Assembly (NCBI GenBank): GCA_030685015.1
Contig: JAUXWS010000032.1
Location: 1-20,119, forward strand
Direction: 5' to 3'
Length of the DNA: 20,119 bases
From: a bacterium
GTDB taxonomy: Bacteria; CAIWAD01
The translations under genes and the position numbers were made by a program. Numbering within the stretch: position 1 is the first letter of the stretch; the number at the start of each line of letters is the position of its first letter. The notes beneath the pieces are model-generated. The model saw only the letters and a program-made list of their open reading frames with translations. It was not told the DNA's origin and ran no database searches. Of this stretch, positions 1 to 5,075 are shown piece by piece.

Positions 1-140
1 CGGTCTTCATCGCCCCAATCGGTCCGGATTTTCCGCAATTTTCTTGAACAGACCACCAGTATGCCCTGCGAAAATTCCGAAAACCCGGCCTCGATTTGGA
101 CGCGAATCCCATCCAAGGCCCAAGCCCGACAGGCTGCTAG
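1..140 (-). mobile_element. Palindromic in-frame element, copy 1 (cut by window edge)
   Basis: Positions 1-140 are the reverse complement of 3523-3662 with three substitutions and no indels. The terminal CTAG lies at 137-140 and the inverted-repeat end CCGACAGGCTG just inside it. The other end lies left of the window, so a target duplication cannot be checked here. On the minus strand the element is read by the small membrane-protein gene from its codon 113 (CTA), the same phase used in the second copy. The three differences are GTC/GCC (Val/Ala) and two synonymous third-position changes. No transposase is encoded, so it would be non-autonomous. Confidence 0.85.
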
Positions 141-476
141 GGAAGAGCAAACGCCTCTGGAACTGAAACCGCCCGCAACATTTCCGGGGAGTAGCCCCAA
201 GAACAGTATGACGAAGAATCCTCCGAGGGCTATCCCCCCAAGGCATGAGCCCAGGCACTCCCATTTAAACGCCAGCAGCATGGATATAGTATAGATCCCC
301 ATCAGGGCTAGCCCGACTGCTGCAAACGGCTCAATTGACTTAAATGGCAGACCAGACTCCAGGGACTCCCCGATGAACATCAGCAGGAGGAAACCCGCGA
401 AGATCAACCCCAGTACGCGAGCAGACCATCTCATAACTACTACTGCACCATTTTTCCTTTCTCGGACCGTCTTCAT
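1..476 (-). CDS. Small multi-pass membrane protein, 3'-partial, C-terminus formed by inserted element
   Basis: The ATG at 476 is preceded by AAGGAG with six bases of spacing. The frame stays open for 158 codons to the window edge. The first 112 residues are a small integral membrane protein with about three hydrophobic segments (roughly residues 21-38, 58-76 and 84-102), an FIGE motif after the first and a charged KWE turn after the second. I cannot name a family. From codon 113 the sequence is the palindromic element, read in-frame and beginning LAACRAWALDG. The true end of the protein lies outside the window. The gene sits 88 bp downstream of the lipoprotein gene on the same strand and may share its promoter. 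Its codons (AGG, ATA, GTA) are less GC-rich than those of the other genes, which may mean foreign origin or relaxed selection. Confidence 0.75.
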   Translation of the reverse strand, partial: MKTVRERKNGAVVVMRWSARVLGLIFAGFLLLMFIGESLESGLPFKSIEPFAAVGLALMGIYTISMLLAFKWECLGSCLGGIALGGFFVILFLGLLPGNVAGGFSSRGVCSSLAACRAWALDGIRVQIEAGFSEFSQGILVVCSRKLRKIRTDWGDED

Positions 477-564
477 AGGATTCTCCTTTCGTGCAGGACG
501 GCCATGCCCGTTCGGCCGTGCACCTCATAGCGCATGATAGAACAAGCAAGAAGTCTGTCGTGGT

Positions 565-1137
565 TCAGCGGTCCAGCCAAATCCGCTTGATCATCCGGGT
601 CAGGACCTCGCCGCCGCCGCGGCGATCAACGGGCTTGACGTCATGGAACTCCTCCCAGTGTGAATTGGTGAGTCCACCGCTGGCAAGCAGGCCCTCGCGG
701 TCCGCCAGGAAGTAGTGCACACCGACCACAAGGCTCTCATCAGGAACACACAGGATCTCCCCCAGCAGCGCATAGTCGGTCTGGATCCCCTGCTCCTTCA
801 CCTTGGCCGCGAAAGCGAGAGCGCTCTCCTGGGCCATCTTGGACTGATCGATCCGCCAGTGAACGGGAATCTCAATCACGGTGGGGTCCAGGGTGGGATC
901 GGCCAGATTTTCCGCCCGGAGGAATTCCGCCACGTGGCGGGCCAGCTCCACATCATGTTCTCGAGTTCCGCCCTTGACCACATGCACGGGAAAGACCGTC
1001 ACCGAGACGACTCCATCCCTCGCCTGGAAGCTGCGCGCCGCATTTTTCGCGATGTAGGACGAGCACGAGCAGAACACCAAAGTCGGAAGCAGCATCAAGC
1101 CGGCCCCACAACGGATTTGCATGCCAAATCTGTTCAT
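565..1137 (-). CDS. Hypothetical lipoprotein
   Basis: A 190-residue protein. The start at 1137 is chosen over upstream in-frame codons because GAAGGAG lies six bases before it and a lipoprotein signal begins directly there. The signal is a hydrophobic stretch (residues 11-22) ending in Cys-Ser-Cys, with Cys25 (after Ser24) the likely lipidation site. The mature part has no family I recognise with confidence. It has an alpha/beta look, with a VTVFPVHVV strand near residue 45 and a conserved-looking TDYALLGEI segment near residue 120. That pattern recalls lipoproteins of the CsgG/LpoB-like fold, but this is a guess. It would be anchored in the outer or inner membrane facing the periplasm. It is the first gene of a likely two-gene unit driven by the promoter at 1222-1250. 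Confidence 0.8.
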   Translation of the reverse strand: MNRFGMQIRCGAGLMLLPTLVFCSCSSYIAKNAARSFQARDGVVSVTVFPVHVVKGGTREHDVELARHVAEFLRAENLADPTLDPTVIEIPVHWRIDQSKMAQESALAFAAKVKEQGIQTDYALLGEILCVPDESLVVGVHYFLADREGLLASGGLTNSHWEEFHDVKPVDRRGGGEVLTRMIKRIWLDR

Positions 1138-1221
1138 GACCATCTCCTTCCGCTCTAGGAACAATGTGAGTCAGGGGGAAGCTATCACCACAGGCAAGTC
1201 GTCGAGGTCTGGATGCGGACG

Positions 1222-1250
1222 AGCTTAGGTCATTCGGTTACGACTGTCAA
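1222..1250 (-). promoter_or_regulatory. Sigma70-like promoter for lipoprotein gene
   Basis: On the minus strand a perfect TTGACA (1250-1245) is followed by a 17-base spacer and TAAGCT (1227-1222). The predicted start is near 1215, giving a leader of about 78 nt before the ATG at 1137. An AT-richer stretch lies just upstream (1251-1285), which could be an UP-like region. Confidence 0.55.
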
Positions 1251-1336
1251 GTCATTTTTGCGGATAGTAATAGCTTTTTACTGAGACTGCTCAATCGAAC
1301 AACCCTTACTCATAACCGAAGAACTTGCCTGATTCA

Positions 1337-1389
1337 TGAACAGGCTCCTCCCTGTTCAAAATCCGACAAGCCCAGCAGGCTGGACTTGT
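1337..1389. repeat. Two adjacent hairpins in a gene-free stretch
   Basis: The 388-base gap 1138-1525 holds no convincing gene. It contains the promoter at 1222-1250 and two hairpins: TGAACAGG/CCTGTTCA (1337-1358, loop of six) and ACAAG-CCAGC/GCTGG-CTTGT (1366-1389, short loop, one bulge on each side). They may be a terminator for transcription entering from the left or part of the leader region of the following gene. Neither has a U-run strong enough to call it an intrinsic terminator. Confidence 0.5.
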
Positions 1390-1525
1390 TCACTGCTCAC
1401 CTGCGCAAGAAGTTGCATTTACCCATCAACAGGTTAGCCGCGGACTTGCCTTCCTCCAGGTGAGGCCCAATAGTTGCAGTAGCCAAAGCTCGCACACATA
1501 CCCACCCTATCATCCGGAACCGAAT

Positions 1526-1690
1526 ATGAAACAACCATCGCTTTCTCTCATTCTGACTTTGGCATTGGCGCTGTGGGCTAGGCCGGCCGATGCCTTTGTC
1601 ACCAAATCAGGCGCCGTCGGCGGGCAAACCTGGACGGCGGACACCTACCAGGTCACCGGTGACCTGCGGTCAACTCCGGGGACAGCTTGA
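1526..1690 (+). CDS. N-terminal signal-peptide fragment of frameshifted beta-helix protein
   Basis: The ATG at 1526 opens a typical signal peptide: two polar residues and an N-terminal lysine, a hydrophobic core near residues 6-15, and an ARPADA cleavage region. About 30 mature residues follow (FVTKSGAVGGQTW...VTGDLR), then a stop at 1688-1690. The sequence after VTGDL continues sensibly in another frame: reading GTC AAC TCC GGG GAC AGC TTG gives VNSGDSLTLEPG, matching the start of the later modules. One base, probably a G, appears to be missing at about 1668-1669. This is therefore the 5' end of the next entry and not a separate gene. No good ribosome site is visible before 1526. Confidence 0.65.
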   Translation: MKQPSLSLILTLALALWARPADAFVTKSGAVGGQTWTADTYQVTGDLRSTPGTA

Positions 1691-4491
1691 CCCTGGAACC
1701 CGGCTGCGTCGTCAAGTTCAATTTCAACACGGGCTTGCGCGTCAACGGCACCTTGATCGCCCCCGGCACGGCGGAGCACGGCATTGTCTTCACCAGCCGC
1801 GACGACGACACGCTGGGCGAGATCCTCCCTTCGTCGGACGGAGTGCCGACCCCGGGGGATTGGGACGGTGTCCAGCTCTACGGCTACGTGGGCAATCAGG
1901 GCAGCGCGACGCTGGACCATGTGCTGCTGCGCCACGGGGTAGGCAGCGCCGCCGCCTACCAGGGCGGCCTCTACTGCTACTACAGCGACTGGGCCACAAT
2001 CCAGGACTGCGTGTTCGAGCGCTGCCTGGGCAACGGTGTGCGCGCCTACAACTGCGGCCCGGTGTTCCGTCGCTGCCGGTTCCAGGACAACGGCGCCCAC
2101 GGCCTGGCCGGCTCCAATGGCGGCCGGGTGGAGGCCTGGGATTGCACCTTCACCGGCAACACCCAGTACGCAGCCTGGTTGAGCGGCGTCAATCCCGCCT
2201 CTTATGGCGGCAACAGCGGCAGCGGCAATGGGACCGACGTCCTTGCTGTGAGCGGCAGCCTCAGCGGGTCCGCCCGCTGGCAGATCCAGGCTCCCGGATT
2301 CGCCCTGGGTCTGCTGGGAGGAGTGAGCGTCCCCGTGGCCGACACCCTGACACTGGATGCCGGTGTGGTGGTCAAGTGCCTGGCCGGCAGTTCCCTCACC
2401 ATGAACGGCGTGCTGCGCCTGCTGGGAACGAGTGACAGCCCGGTGGTACTCACCTCCATCCATGACGACAGCTGGGCGGGGGATTCCAACAACAACGGCG
2501 CGGGCACGGCGCCGGCGCCCGGCGACTGGCTCGGCATTGATGCCTACGGCTACCTGTCCAATCGCGGGGTGTTGGAGGCCGAACATTGCCGGGTGCGCTA
2601 CGGCGGCAACGCCGCCAGCGCCTGGGACGCCAACGTGCGCACGAGCTACTCCGACCAGGCCACCTTCCGCCACAGCATCAGCGAATTCAGCGCCACGGCG
2701 GGATACAAGGCGAACAACTGCGGCGCGCTGCTGGAGCACAGCACCTTTCGCGGCAACCTGGGTCATGGCGTGGAGGGCGGCAGCGGCAACCAGATCAGCG
2801 CCATGGACTGCCAGTTCATCGACAATGGCGGCCACGGCGCCTGGCTGGCGGCTGGCTCCTTGCCGTCCCTGGGAGGCAACGGCGGCAGCGGCAATGGCGT
2901 CAACGGCTTCGGACTCAGCGGCGGCACGGGCGGCTCCATCCATTGGTCCGCCAATCAGCCGGGCTTCCCATATGTCCTCACGGGCGCCCTGACGGTCTCC
3001 ACGAGTGATTCCTTGACCATCGGCCCAGGAACGGTCATCAAGGGCGCTCCCGGCTCGTCCCTGACGGCCAGCGGCGCCCTCCTGCTCCGCGGCGAGGAGG
3101 GCGGAGCCATCGTCTTCACCTCCCTCAAGGACGACGACTGGGGCGGTGACACCAACATGGACGGGGCGGCCACCGCGCCGGCCCCGGGGGACTGGCGCGG
3201 CATCGACACCTACGGCTACTTGTCCAGTCGGGGCATCCTCGAGGCCGACCACTGCCTGCTGCGCTACGGCGGGGACGCCGCCAGCTCCTTCGACGCCAAC
3301 CTGCACTTCAACTACTCGGACACGGGCAATCTTCGCCACTGCGCCATCGAGCACAGCGCCACCGCCGGGGTGCGAGTCCACTCCGCGACCCCCCGCATCG
3401 AGCATTGCACCTTCCATGGCAACCTGGGGTCGGGGGTGGTGTCGACCACCAGCGGCGTGCCTGATATCATCGCCTGCACCTTCACCGGGCATCCGGGCTA
3501 TGCCGGCCAGCTGACCGGAGCGCTAGCAGCCTGTCGGGCTTGGGCCTTGGATGGGATTCGCGCCCAAATTGAGGCCGGTTTTTCGGAATTTTCGCAGGGC
3601 ATACTGGTGGTCTGTTCAAGAAAATTGCGGAAAATCCGGACCGATTGGGGCGATGAAGACCGCCAAGTGGCCAAGTCCGACAGGCTGCTAGGTTCTTTCA
3701 GCGGCAATGGCGGCAGCGGCAACGGCATCAACGGCCTGAGTCTTAGCGGCACGGTGGCCAACCAGGTCTGGGGCGAGTGCCTGGGAAGCTTCGCCTATGT
3801 CCTCACGGGCACGGTGACCGTGTCCGCCCCCGACACCCTGCGTCTGGAAGCCGGCGCCCAGGTGAAGGGCGGGGCGGGCCAGCAGCTGCGCGCCGAGGGC
3901 GTGCTGATCGCCACCGGCACGCCCGAGGCGCCGGTTCGAATGACCTCCCTCACGGACGATGAGTGGGGCGGCGACACCAACGGCGACGGCGACGCCACGA
4001 CCGCGCTGCCCGGGGATTGGTATGGATTGAATGCCCATGGCTACCTGAGCTTGAATGGAGAATTGTGGCTGGAACACTGCCAGGTGCGCTACGGCGGCAG
4101 CGGCAGCAACGCCGCCAACATCCTGCTGGCCTACTCCGACCGGGCTGAGCTGCGTCATTGCCTGGTCGAACGCAGCTCAAGTTCCGGCATTCGCTGCTTC
4201 ATCTCCAGTCCCGACATCAGCCACAGCCGCATCGTGGACAACTCCTACACCGGCTTGCGCATCGAAAGCGGTCAGCCACGCTTCGGGGCCGCGGACCACA
4301 GCGCCAGAGGCTACAACACCTTCCTGGGCAACGGCGGCGGCGCCGGTTTCCAGGTGCGCAACGAAACCAGCAACACGATCGAGGGCTGCTACAACGACTG
4401 GGGCGTCTACACGGCGGCGGCCATCGACGCGCTGATCTACGATGACAACGAGGCATCCAGCCGCGGTCCCGTCATCTTCGACCCCTTCATC
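1681..4491 (+). repeat. Four tandem ~660-bp coding modules
   Basis: Module starts, defined by the codon for Asp in D-[ST]-L-x-L, are at 1681, 2341, 3007 and 3832. Spacings are 660, 666 and 825 bp. The third falls to 660 when the 165-bp element is removed. Modules 2 and 3 are the most alike, sharing long runs around GAPAPGDW and AYGYLS. The regular spacing indicates duplication of a whole beta-helix domain. Module 4 ends less regularly and leads into the C-terminal part, so the right boundary is approximate. Confidence 0.8.
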
Positions 4492-4719
4492 ATCGACGCG
4501 CCGCCCAGCCGCATCACGCTCATCCGCGCCGACCCGCTGGCGGGCACCGTGCTGGTCTGCTGGAGGCCCGTCAAGGAGGCCCTGGGCTATCGCGTTTACT
4601 CCGGCATGACCGCTTACGAGCTGACCCTGGACGAGAGCGGCCAGTTCGACGACGCCAGTTGGACGGCGCCCTGGCCCGGCAACAAGCGCTTCTACCAGGT
4701 GCGCGTCCTCACGGAGTGA
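1687..4719 (+). CDS. Secreted right-handed parallel beta-helix protein, four tandem modules, FN3-like C-terminus (frameshifted 5' end)
   Basis: The open frame from TTG 1687 gives 1010 residues. The real start is probably ATG 1526, one lost base away, so TTG 1687 is only the formal start. The protein is four homologous modules beginning at 1681, 2341, 3007 and 3832. Each opens with D-[TS]-L-x-L-x-x-G, carries a GDW-x-G-(x)4-GY segment, then short Cys-, Asn- and Gly-rich coils typical of PbH1 beta-helix repeats, and (modules 1-3) closes with SGNG. Residues ~613-667 of module 3 are a 55-codon insertion from the palindromic element. After module 4 comes a YNDWG-YT-IDALIYDDNE segment and a last ~75 residues resembling a fibronectin-type III domain (GYRVYSG, RFYQVRV). 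No sortase or T9SS tail is evident. A surface or extracellular structural or carbohydrate-binding role is likely, and no catalytic motif was recognised. If the frameshift is real and uncorrected, the gene is non-functional. Confidence 0.85.
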   Translation: MTLEPGCVVKFNFNTGLRVNGTLIAPGTAEHGIVFTSRDDDTLGEILPSSDGVPTPGDWDGVQLYGYVGNQGSATLDHVLLRHGVGSAAAYQGGLYCYYSDWATIQDCVFERCLGNGVRAYNCGPVFRRCRFQDNGAHGLAGSNGGRVEAWDCTFTGNTQYAAWLSGVNPASYGGNSGSGNGTDVLAVSGSLSGSARWQIQAPGFALGLLGGVSVPVADTLTLDAGVVVKCLAGSSLTMNGVLRLLGTSDSPVVLTSIHDDSWAGDSNNNGAGTAPAPGDWLGIDAYGYLSNRGVLEAEHCRVRYGGNAASAWDANVRTSYSDQATFRHSISEFSATAGYKANNCGALLEHSTFRGNLGHGVEGGSGNQISAMDCQFIDNGGHGAWLAAGSLPSLGGNGGSGNGVNGFGLSGGTGGSIHWSANQPGFPYVLTGALTVSTSDSLTIGPGTVIKGAPGSSLTASGALLLRGEEGGAIVFTSLKDDDWGGDTNMDGAATAPAPGDWRGIDTYGYLSSRGILEADHCLLRYGGDAASSFDANLHFNYSDTGNLRHCAIEHSATAGVRVHSATPRIEHCTFHGNLGSGVVSTTSGVPDIIACTFTGHPGYAGQLTGALAACRAWALDGIRAQIEAGFSEFSQGILVVCSRKLRKIRTDWGDEDRQVAKSDRLLGSFSGNGGSGNGINGLSLSGTVANQVWGECLGSFAYVLTGTVTVSAPDTLRLEAGAQVKGGAGQQLRAEGVLIATGTPEAPVRMTSLTDDEWGGDTNGDGDATTALPGDWYGLNAHGYLSLNGELWLEHCQVRYGGSGSNAANILLAYSDRAELRHCLVERSSSSGIRCFISSPDISHSRIVDNSYTGLRIESGQPRFGAADHSARGYNTFLGNGGGAGFQVRNETSNTIEGCYNDWGVYTAAAIDALIYDDNEASSRGPVIFDPFIIDAPPSRITLIRADPLAGTVLVCWRPVKEALGYRVYSGMTAYELTLDESGQFDDASWTAPWPGNKRFYQVRVLTE
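3523..3691 (+). mobile_element. Palindromic in-frame element, copy 2 (complete, with CTAG duplication)
   Basis: CTAG occurs at 3523-3526 and 3688-3691, flanking a 161-bp core. The core ends are inverted repeats of 17 bp with one mismatch (3527-3543 against 3671-3687; CAGCCTGTCGG-x-CTTGG). A second inverted pair lies inside (3577-3594 against 3620-3637), and the arms between them are also partly complementary. The whole unit could therefore fold as one long imperfect hairpin with a ~25-nt loop (3595-3619). Core plus one CTAG is 165 bp, exactly 55 codons, and the frame used by the host gene has no stop, whereas the other two plus-strand frames do. No transposase is present. A CTAG target is reminiscent of some IS5-group elements, which is only a hint to parentage. 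Confidence 0.88.
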
Positions 4720-4743
4720 GGGTGGCGGCATCGTGTGAGACAG

Positions 4744-4773
4744 GCGAAGGCCCGGCATCAGCCGGGCCTTCGC
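4744..4773. terminator. Bidirectional terminator-like hairpin
   Basis: A perfect 13-bp stem (GCGAAGGCCCGGC and its complement) with an ATCA loop lies 24 bases after the beta-helix stop, between convergent genes. There is no clear U-tract on either strand, so it may be a terminator of non-canonical type or an mRNA 3'-end stabiliser for one or both genes. Confidence 0.65.
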
Positions 4774-4800
4774 ACCTTGACGGGGGGCAGATTCATCCAG

Positions 4801-4825
4801 GGTGTCCGACCCTTGGTCGGACACC
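4801..4825. repeat. Extragenic palindrome, copy A
   Basis: GGTGTCCGAC and GTCGGACACC pair as a perfect 10-bp stem around a CCTTG loop. The flanking CCA and TGG extend the stem past one bulged G at 4800. It shares its whole stem with the palindrome at 5004-5030, 203 bases away. The 356-base gap 4720-5075 holds no credible gene: apart from the hairpin at 4744-4773 it contains these two palindromes and GC-rich sequence between them. Confidence 0.7.
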
Positions 4826-5003
4826 TGGCCAAGGAACTGGACACCGCCACCTGCGGGAAGGGCCGCGCTCGGGCACCGGTGCGGGGAACCTCGGCCCGGT
4901 CCTGTCCCAAGGTCCAGACCTGCGGACATCGGGTGGCCATTTGTCCACGCTTGGAGCGGGATTTCGGAGCCTGGGCGCCAGGACGATGGGCAGATCCTGC
5001 CCA

Positions 5004-5030
5004 GGTGTCCGACGAAGGGTCGGACACCTG
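5004..5030. repeat. Extragenic palindrome, copy B
   Basis: AGGTGTCCGAC and GTCGGACACCT form a perfect 11-bp stem around GAAGG. The stem matches copy A at 4801-4825 while the loop differs, the pattern expected if base pairing is conserved. A smaller hairpin, GGGCAG/CTGCCC (4989-5003), abuts it on the left. It lies 46 bases from the stop of the TonB receptor gene and could be a REP-like unit or part of a 3' end. Confidence 0.7.
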
Positions 5031-5075
5031 TCCAAATGGTCGCCCACCCGTGCGCCGGCTCCTTCGCTCAAGCCC

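Follow-up and report, generated by a model that had tools for sequence, protein, structure and literature searches.

A 169-bp hairpin element with IS1182-family ends, its CTAG sites and its in-frame copies in a CAIWAD01 genome and in proteobacteria

REP/BIME and ERIC are palindromic repeats that are often found near the 3' ends of genes. Rickettsia palindromic elements (RPE), palindromes of about 150 bp, are scattered in unrelated metabolic genes, in frame and open, and their host proteins are apparently kept (PMC10969869). QMITE1 and QMITE2 of Coxiella burnetii are hairpin miniature inverted-repeat transposable elements (MITEs) that give genes stop codons or C-terminal residues, sometimes in frame (PMC5896051). 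Palindromic coding repeats scattered across distant microbes encode 25-residue tandem protein repeats in surface proteins (PMC2996958). Here we characterize a 169-bp palindromic element from a 20,119-nucleotide stretch of bacterial DNA (the window; contig JAUXWS010000032.1 of assembly GCA_030685015.1, GTDB lineage CAIWAD01), which belongs to a metagenome-assembled genome (MAG) of 3.61 Mb in 105 contigs, the home genome, in which a 16S search detected no SSU gene. We interpret the element, with a probability of about 0.83, as a MITE-like, non-autonomous derivative of an insertion sequence (IS) of the IS1182 family (ISAzo1-like); it would insert at CTAG, and its RPE-like in-frame additions to proteins would be a by-product.

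By description, not by sequence, the element is like an RPE in being palindromic, open and in frame in host proteins that are apparently kept. It differs in host groups, in its IS1182-family ends and in its CTAG rule; in the home genome it lies mostly outside genes or at stop codons, and the peptide shows no sign of selection. REP/BIME and ERIC are alike in palindromy and in siting at 3' ends, but their ends, lengths and mobilising enzymes differ. With QMITE1 and QMITE2 it has in common the hairpin MITE form and a position at gene ends, sometimes in frame, whereas the accessible part of that source does not report IS1182 ends or a CTAG rule and does not show widespread in-frame insertion in conserved enzymes (PMC5896051). 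The coding repeats of PMC2996958 are likewise palindromic DNA in distant microbes, but are tandem, unlike the single-copy transposon insertions described here. A literature search for the end sequence, which reached few subscription papers, gave one unrelated match and no description of the element, and its novelty is provisional.

Structure, distribution and ends of the element

The 169-bp element folds as a single imperfect hairpin over its full length. Full-length homologues of 167-169 bp were detected in Extensimonas, Rhodoferax, Thiohalomonas, Halothiobacillus, a Desulfuromonadales MAG and others, and the best of these resemble it beyond the common ends (z = 8-9 against shuffled interiors). 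Organism labels were taken from the records; several of the genomes are MAGs and some metagenome bins may be misassigned, but the Extensimonas perlucida genome is that of a listed strain. In an alignment of 22 sequences the hairpin has 59 pairs with 90.4% of cells paired, and 41 pairs carry two-sided changes; its covariation of 0.515 compares with 0.170 for shuffled alignments (0/500) and 0.09-0.13 for slid structures. Across distant bacteria, length (167-169 bp) and pairing are conserved and sequence is not.

The element is abundant in several of these genomes. Covariance-model matches number 139 for Extensimonas perlucida, 97 for a Rhodoferax MAG and 117 for a Deltaproteobacteria MAG, counts that include some both-strand matches to the same palindrome. 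In the home lineage and in several proteobacterial genomes, a genome carries from tens to >100 homologues. Many Rhodoferax copies have an identical score and are apparently young, which suggests recent movement. The home genome contains about 43 copies, of which 21 are near-identical; older copies have 66-87% identity and some are 190-203 bp long. The preliminary description of the window, which spoke of only two copies, undercounted the element, and a sister species has further ones. The chance origin that it left open is rejected by the ~43 copies and excluded for the repeat itself: the window alone has three end-motif matches against none expected.

The ends connect the element to IS1182-family insertion sequences. 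The end sequence CTAGCAGCCTGTCGG occurs in >100 contigs of many bacterial groups, often as inverted pairs. In Thiocystis, Zoogloea and Thauera, pairs with a spacing of 1535-1552 bp enclose IS1182 transposases with scores of 356-382 bits (model cut-off, 270 bits), and the element in Thauera has 83.6% identity to an annotated ISAzo1-like element. In a genome of the same class, the start of an IS1182 transposase lies behind CTAGGAGTCTGTCGGACTTT, a near-match to the ends CTAGGAGCCTGTCGG of that genome's own 168-bp elements. The terminal inverted repeat CTAGCAGCCTGTCGGACTT and the terminal CTAG are common to the ISAzo1-like IS and the element, which differ in that only the IS encode a transposase and in that the conserved hairpin interior bears no visible likeness to the IS interior. 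Small size (169 bp), lack of a transposase, many dispersed copies and terminal inverted repeats in common with an autonomous IS are properties of a MITE that the element shows. A search of plasmid records with an Extensimonas element copy gave no match.

Several other arrangements of these ends were observed. Planctomycetota, Anaerolineae, Pseudomonadaceae and Opitutaceae have much shorter hairpins, of 50-125 bp, with the same CTAG...CTAG termini (L047, L059, L076, L088, L109, L136), and longer variants of 235-370 bp have the same ends around another interior (L086:872-1241, L054:4987-5221, L100:3875-4115). The Planctomycetota genome gave 71 weak covariance-model matches. A probable further insertion sequence of ~1.55 kb, which has the ends TGCAGAATCCGGGTT and is flanked by a repeat a few bases long, interrupts one element copy (L208:14713-16432, G000 contig 28). 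At L197 and L201 a second inverted-repeat end abuts the left side of the element with the CTAG in common, which suggests nested or end-to-end insertion.

Proposed insertion at CTAG, and copies at stop codons and within genes

We propose that the repeat is a MITE-like, non-autonomous derivative of an ISAzo1-like insertion sequence and that an ISAzo1-like transposase would move it. It would insert at CTAG and leave CTAG at both ends, so that a 169-bp copy adds 165 bp, with a presumed target duplication. CTAG, rare in these GC-rich genomes, lies mostly in non-coding DNA, at stop codons (C-TAG) or, within genes, in the CTA-G phase. Insertion at a stop codon would be harmless because the gene keeps its TAG. 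Within a gene, insertion would survive only if the element is open and its net length a multiple of three, in which case the ribosome would translate the insert and about 55 residues would be added (LAACR...SDRLL in the home genome). Protein insertions like those of RPE would then arise as a by-product of the target, the length and the openness of one strand, with no selection on the peptide.

CTAG is scarce in both genomes in which it was counted. The home genome has 51 sites outside elements in 411 kb, and Extensimonas has 324 in 800 kb, elements included, compared to ~2473 expected from base composition. Of the 51 background sites, 33 are intergenic, 11 are stop codons and seven are genic, five of the latter in the CTA-G phase. 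The elements of the home genome are distributed similarly: in 12 of 43 the TAG is also that of a gene stop (background, 11/51; P = 0.63), one is clearly and two or three are possibly in frame within genes, and the others are intergenic, many of them between divergent genes. Because the stop share equals the CTAG background, no preference for stop codons is needed in the home genome, and a specific preference there was rejected. In Extensimonas the stop share exceeded the background (6/69 copies vs. 4/212 sites; P = 0.016). In all eight genes compared (metK, glgC, DUF2400, lexA, gcvH, DsrE-like, Gate-domain and dihydrolipoamide dehydrogenase-type), orthologs without the element terminate at the same codon; some of these empty stops are CTAG and others are TAG in another context, TGA or TAA.

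Whether CTAG is duplicated on insertion bears on the mechanism. The partner end was also CTAG in 49 of 67 end pairings, although pairings include chance matches, and adjacent Extensimonas copies overlap by precisely four bases, CTAG. A 4-bp target duplication is likely rather than proven, because identical non-CTAG flank pairs (CTGG/CTGG, CTCG/CTCG, CAAG/CAAG and CCAG/CCAG) support it, yet unequal pairs occur. As a separate observation, CTAG is strongly depleted in two genomes (G000 and G060) and the element-terminal CTAG often reads CCAG or CTGG, a pattern that suggests a mutational or repair bias against CTAG.

Copies within genes were evaluated in Extensimonas perlucida with 69 copies in 800 kb, and a copy was counted if, after collapse of its site, the gene was coding on either side. 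Collapsing a 169-bp copy to one CTAG removes 165 bp, or 55 codons. Fourteen copies (13 in a first pass, 14 in a re-run) lie inside otherwise intact genes; all are open and in frame, and none is disruptive. The preliminary description predicted that intragenic copies would mostly be read in the CTA phase, which was borne out in this relative by 13 of the 14, all in one orientation (P ~4e-5 given the local CTAG phases and random strand). The single orientation follows from the opposite strand, which in the same phase has a stop in 64 of 67 Extensimonas copies, and phase and orientation together are explained not by peptide function but by the CTAG target, a net length of 165 bp and the single open strand. 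As a universal rule, same phase and orientation is contradicted by the second in-frame case, L274 of a sister species, which is read on the other strand in another phase.

The Extensimonas hosts include MurD, PdxA, Mpl, SerB, phosphoglycolate phosphatase (called in-gene by the first method only), a CysN-like GTPase, a YbaL-type transporter, an NAD(P)H-hydrate repair enzyme and a transaminase. The insert in MurD is positioned between residues 342 and 346 of a solved MurD, and the insert-bearing gene is the sole locus above the murD cut-off in the genome. MurD, the product of a cell-wall gene, is generally essential and, therefore, the host probably makes a working MurD. Peptides predicted to derive from the Extensimonas insert include SENAPQR and TLGVESENAPQR.

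Differences in length and openness among genomes provided a natural control. In genomes with open 169-bp copies, intact genes contain 14 of 67 copies in Extensimonas, 2 of 18 in a second proteobacterial bin and 3 of 17 in the home genome (one clear, two possible). Copies of 167-168 bp, which add 163-164 bp, or of 169 bp with stops were found in intact genes in 0 of 57 cases, with one disrupted gene. When the home genome is left out, the comparison is 16/85 vs. 0/57 (Fisher P = 2e-4). The likeness to RPE drawn in the preliminary description therefore holds in part: it applies to in-frame copies in unrelated genes in Extensimonas (14/69) and is weak for the home genome. There, most copies are not intragenic, and mostly intergenic siting was what that description had said would refute it.

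We also considered, tentatively and as a doubtful extension, that some lineages keep the hairpin at a net length that is a multiple of three with a stop-free strand because coding CTAG sites thereby become habitat, and that dozens of in-frame insertions accumulate in conserved enzymes.

Evidence against a MITE-like origin and alternative explanations

Several points weigh against a MITE-like element of an ISAzo1-like IS that inserts at CTAG. No such ends lie near the intact IS1182 transposase of the home genome itself, which was dropped as a candidate mover after no matching ends were found. The home genome has only one clear in-frame insertion, whose host gene is 5'-frameshifted in the assembly, and gene calls rest on our own codon-usage model. 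Several copies have unequal end 4-mers such as CTAG/CTGG, for which a 4-bp duplication needs later mutation, and IS1272, which also belongs to the IS1182 family, takes the place of inverted repeats with no duplication made (PMC5678879). The last two points together make up the main mechanistic rival, in which a pre-existing inverted repeat is replaced and CTAG is part of the element ends, not a target. We regard this as quite unlikely even with a precedent in the same transposase family (PMC5678879), as no obvious inverted repeat was detected at the empty ortholog stop codons, neighbouring copies have one CTAG in common, and the siting of the element tracks the genomic distribution of CTAG. 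A role in RNA, with the giant hairpin acting after stops as a terminator or mRNA stabiliser and the in-frame copies being accidental, would fit the covariation over the full hairpin, the frequent siting directly at stop codons and, to a minor degree, the raised stop share in Extensimonas. It is unlikely nevertheless, given a stop share equal to background in the home genome, the many copies between divergent genes and the presence of the element on either strand.

Two further explanations concern the peptide. That the 55 residues are a selected protein-coding module, spreading between proteins like a functional domain, could be read from a frame-0 peptide that is alike in Extensimonas and two other proteobacterial genomes and from the openness of frame 0 in 65 of 67 Extensimonas copies. 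The open frame is inherited, however, because copies outside genes are equally open (47/49), and stop counts in Extensimonas are uninformative, being low even for the frame that is already closed. Synonymous changes showed no excess in Extensimonas (96 vs. 101.8 expected) or in the home genome, where the preliminary description saw two of three differences as synonymous; over 15 young copies this does not hold (11/50 vs. 12.3 expected; P = 0.71). In many homologues elsewhere, LAACRT is soon followed by a stop, and the sister-species in-frame copy is read on the other strand. The sequences give no sign that the added peptide is selected, and a selected module is highly improbable; the in-gene copies are best read as survivors of CTAG insertion by an open element of suitable length, a multiple of three. 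We give hardly any credence to the idea that the insert is present in the gene and absent from the product, the hairpin being spliced out or bypassed in translation between the repeated CTA codons. A large hairpin between identical CTAG repeats does look like bypassed elements, and the insert is present in conserved enzymes, MurD and PdxA among them, but removal would make stops and orientation irrelevant, and yet every Extensimonas in-gene copy is open, 13 in the sole open orientation, and closed variants or those of other lengths are missing from intact genes (0/57).

The window copies and what the element means

The coordinates of the two copies and their host reading frames are given in Table 1. 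As first described, the copies are 97.9% identical (137/140), and both are entered by their open reading frames (ORFs) at the codon CTA in a frame that is open. The claim that both are in-frame insertions is upheld for the beta-helix gene, a clear case. The other copy is not judgeable because contigs C28, C29, C32 and C35 all end in the repeat. When the membrane ORF is joined to C28, it reaches a stop three codons past the element; when joined to C29, it continues, but in a frame that apparently differs from that of the gene there. This copy is at most a C-terminal tail, with no demonstrated internal insertion. Near 1668 the beta-helix host is apparently frameshifted by one base, its signal-peptide ORF from 1526 being in another frame than the remainder (window 1526-1700), and the split gene may be a pseudogene or result from misassembly. 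A PADLOC scan of the host protein gave no match. For window 1-5000, an Rfam search with E values up to 1 gave no structured RNA, and a known structured RNA was rejected on this ground. Two short palindromes (4801-4825 and 5009-5032; GGTGTCCGAC...GTCGGACACC) lie in the interval from the beta-helix gene to the receptor gene downstream of it.

Table 1. Element copies, their ends and host reading frames in the window
Feature	Position	Strand	Remarks
Complete 169-bp hairpin element	3523..3691	+	In frame in beta-helix gene; starts and ends with CTAG; adds a net 165 bp (55 codons)
Left terminal inverted repeat CTAGCAGCCTGTCGGGCTT	3523..3541	+	Common to IS1182-family (ISAzo1-like) elements
Right terminal inverted repeat	3673..3691	-	CTAGCAGCCTGTCGGACTT on minus strand
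Left copy of 4-bp target CTAG	3523..3526	.	
Right copy of 4-bp target CTAG	3688..3691	.	
Second element copy, cut off by contig end	1..140	-	
Host ORF of complete copy, right-handed beta-helix protein (Pfam PF13229)	1687..4719	+	
ORF, small putative membrane protein	3..476	-	Enters truncated copy in CTA phase

RPEs have so far been unusual as selfish DNA that enters proteins without destroying them, and the same outcome is now seen in other bacteria. The IS family, the short target and the length rule make the phenomenon testable, as open copies that add 165 bp would be tolerated in genes and those that add 164 bp or are closed would not. An apparently single murD that carries the insert makes a test at the protein level direct. 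The CTAG rule explains the exact siting of such elements on stop codons. If some lineages do keep a gene-tolerant hairpin, RPE-like insertion would be recurrent and predictable in free-living bacteria and no peculiarity of Rickettsia.

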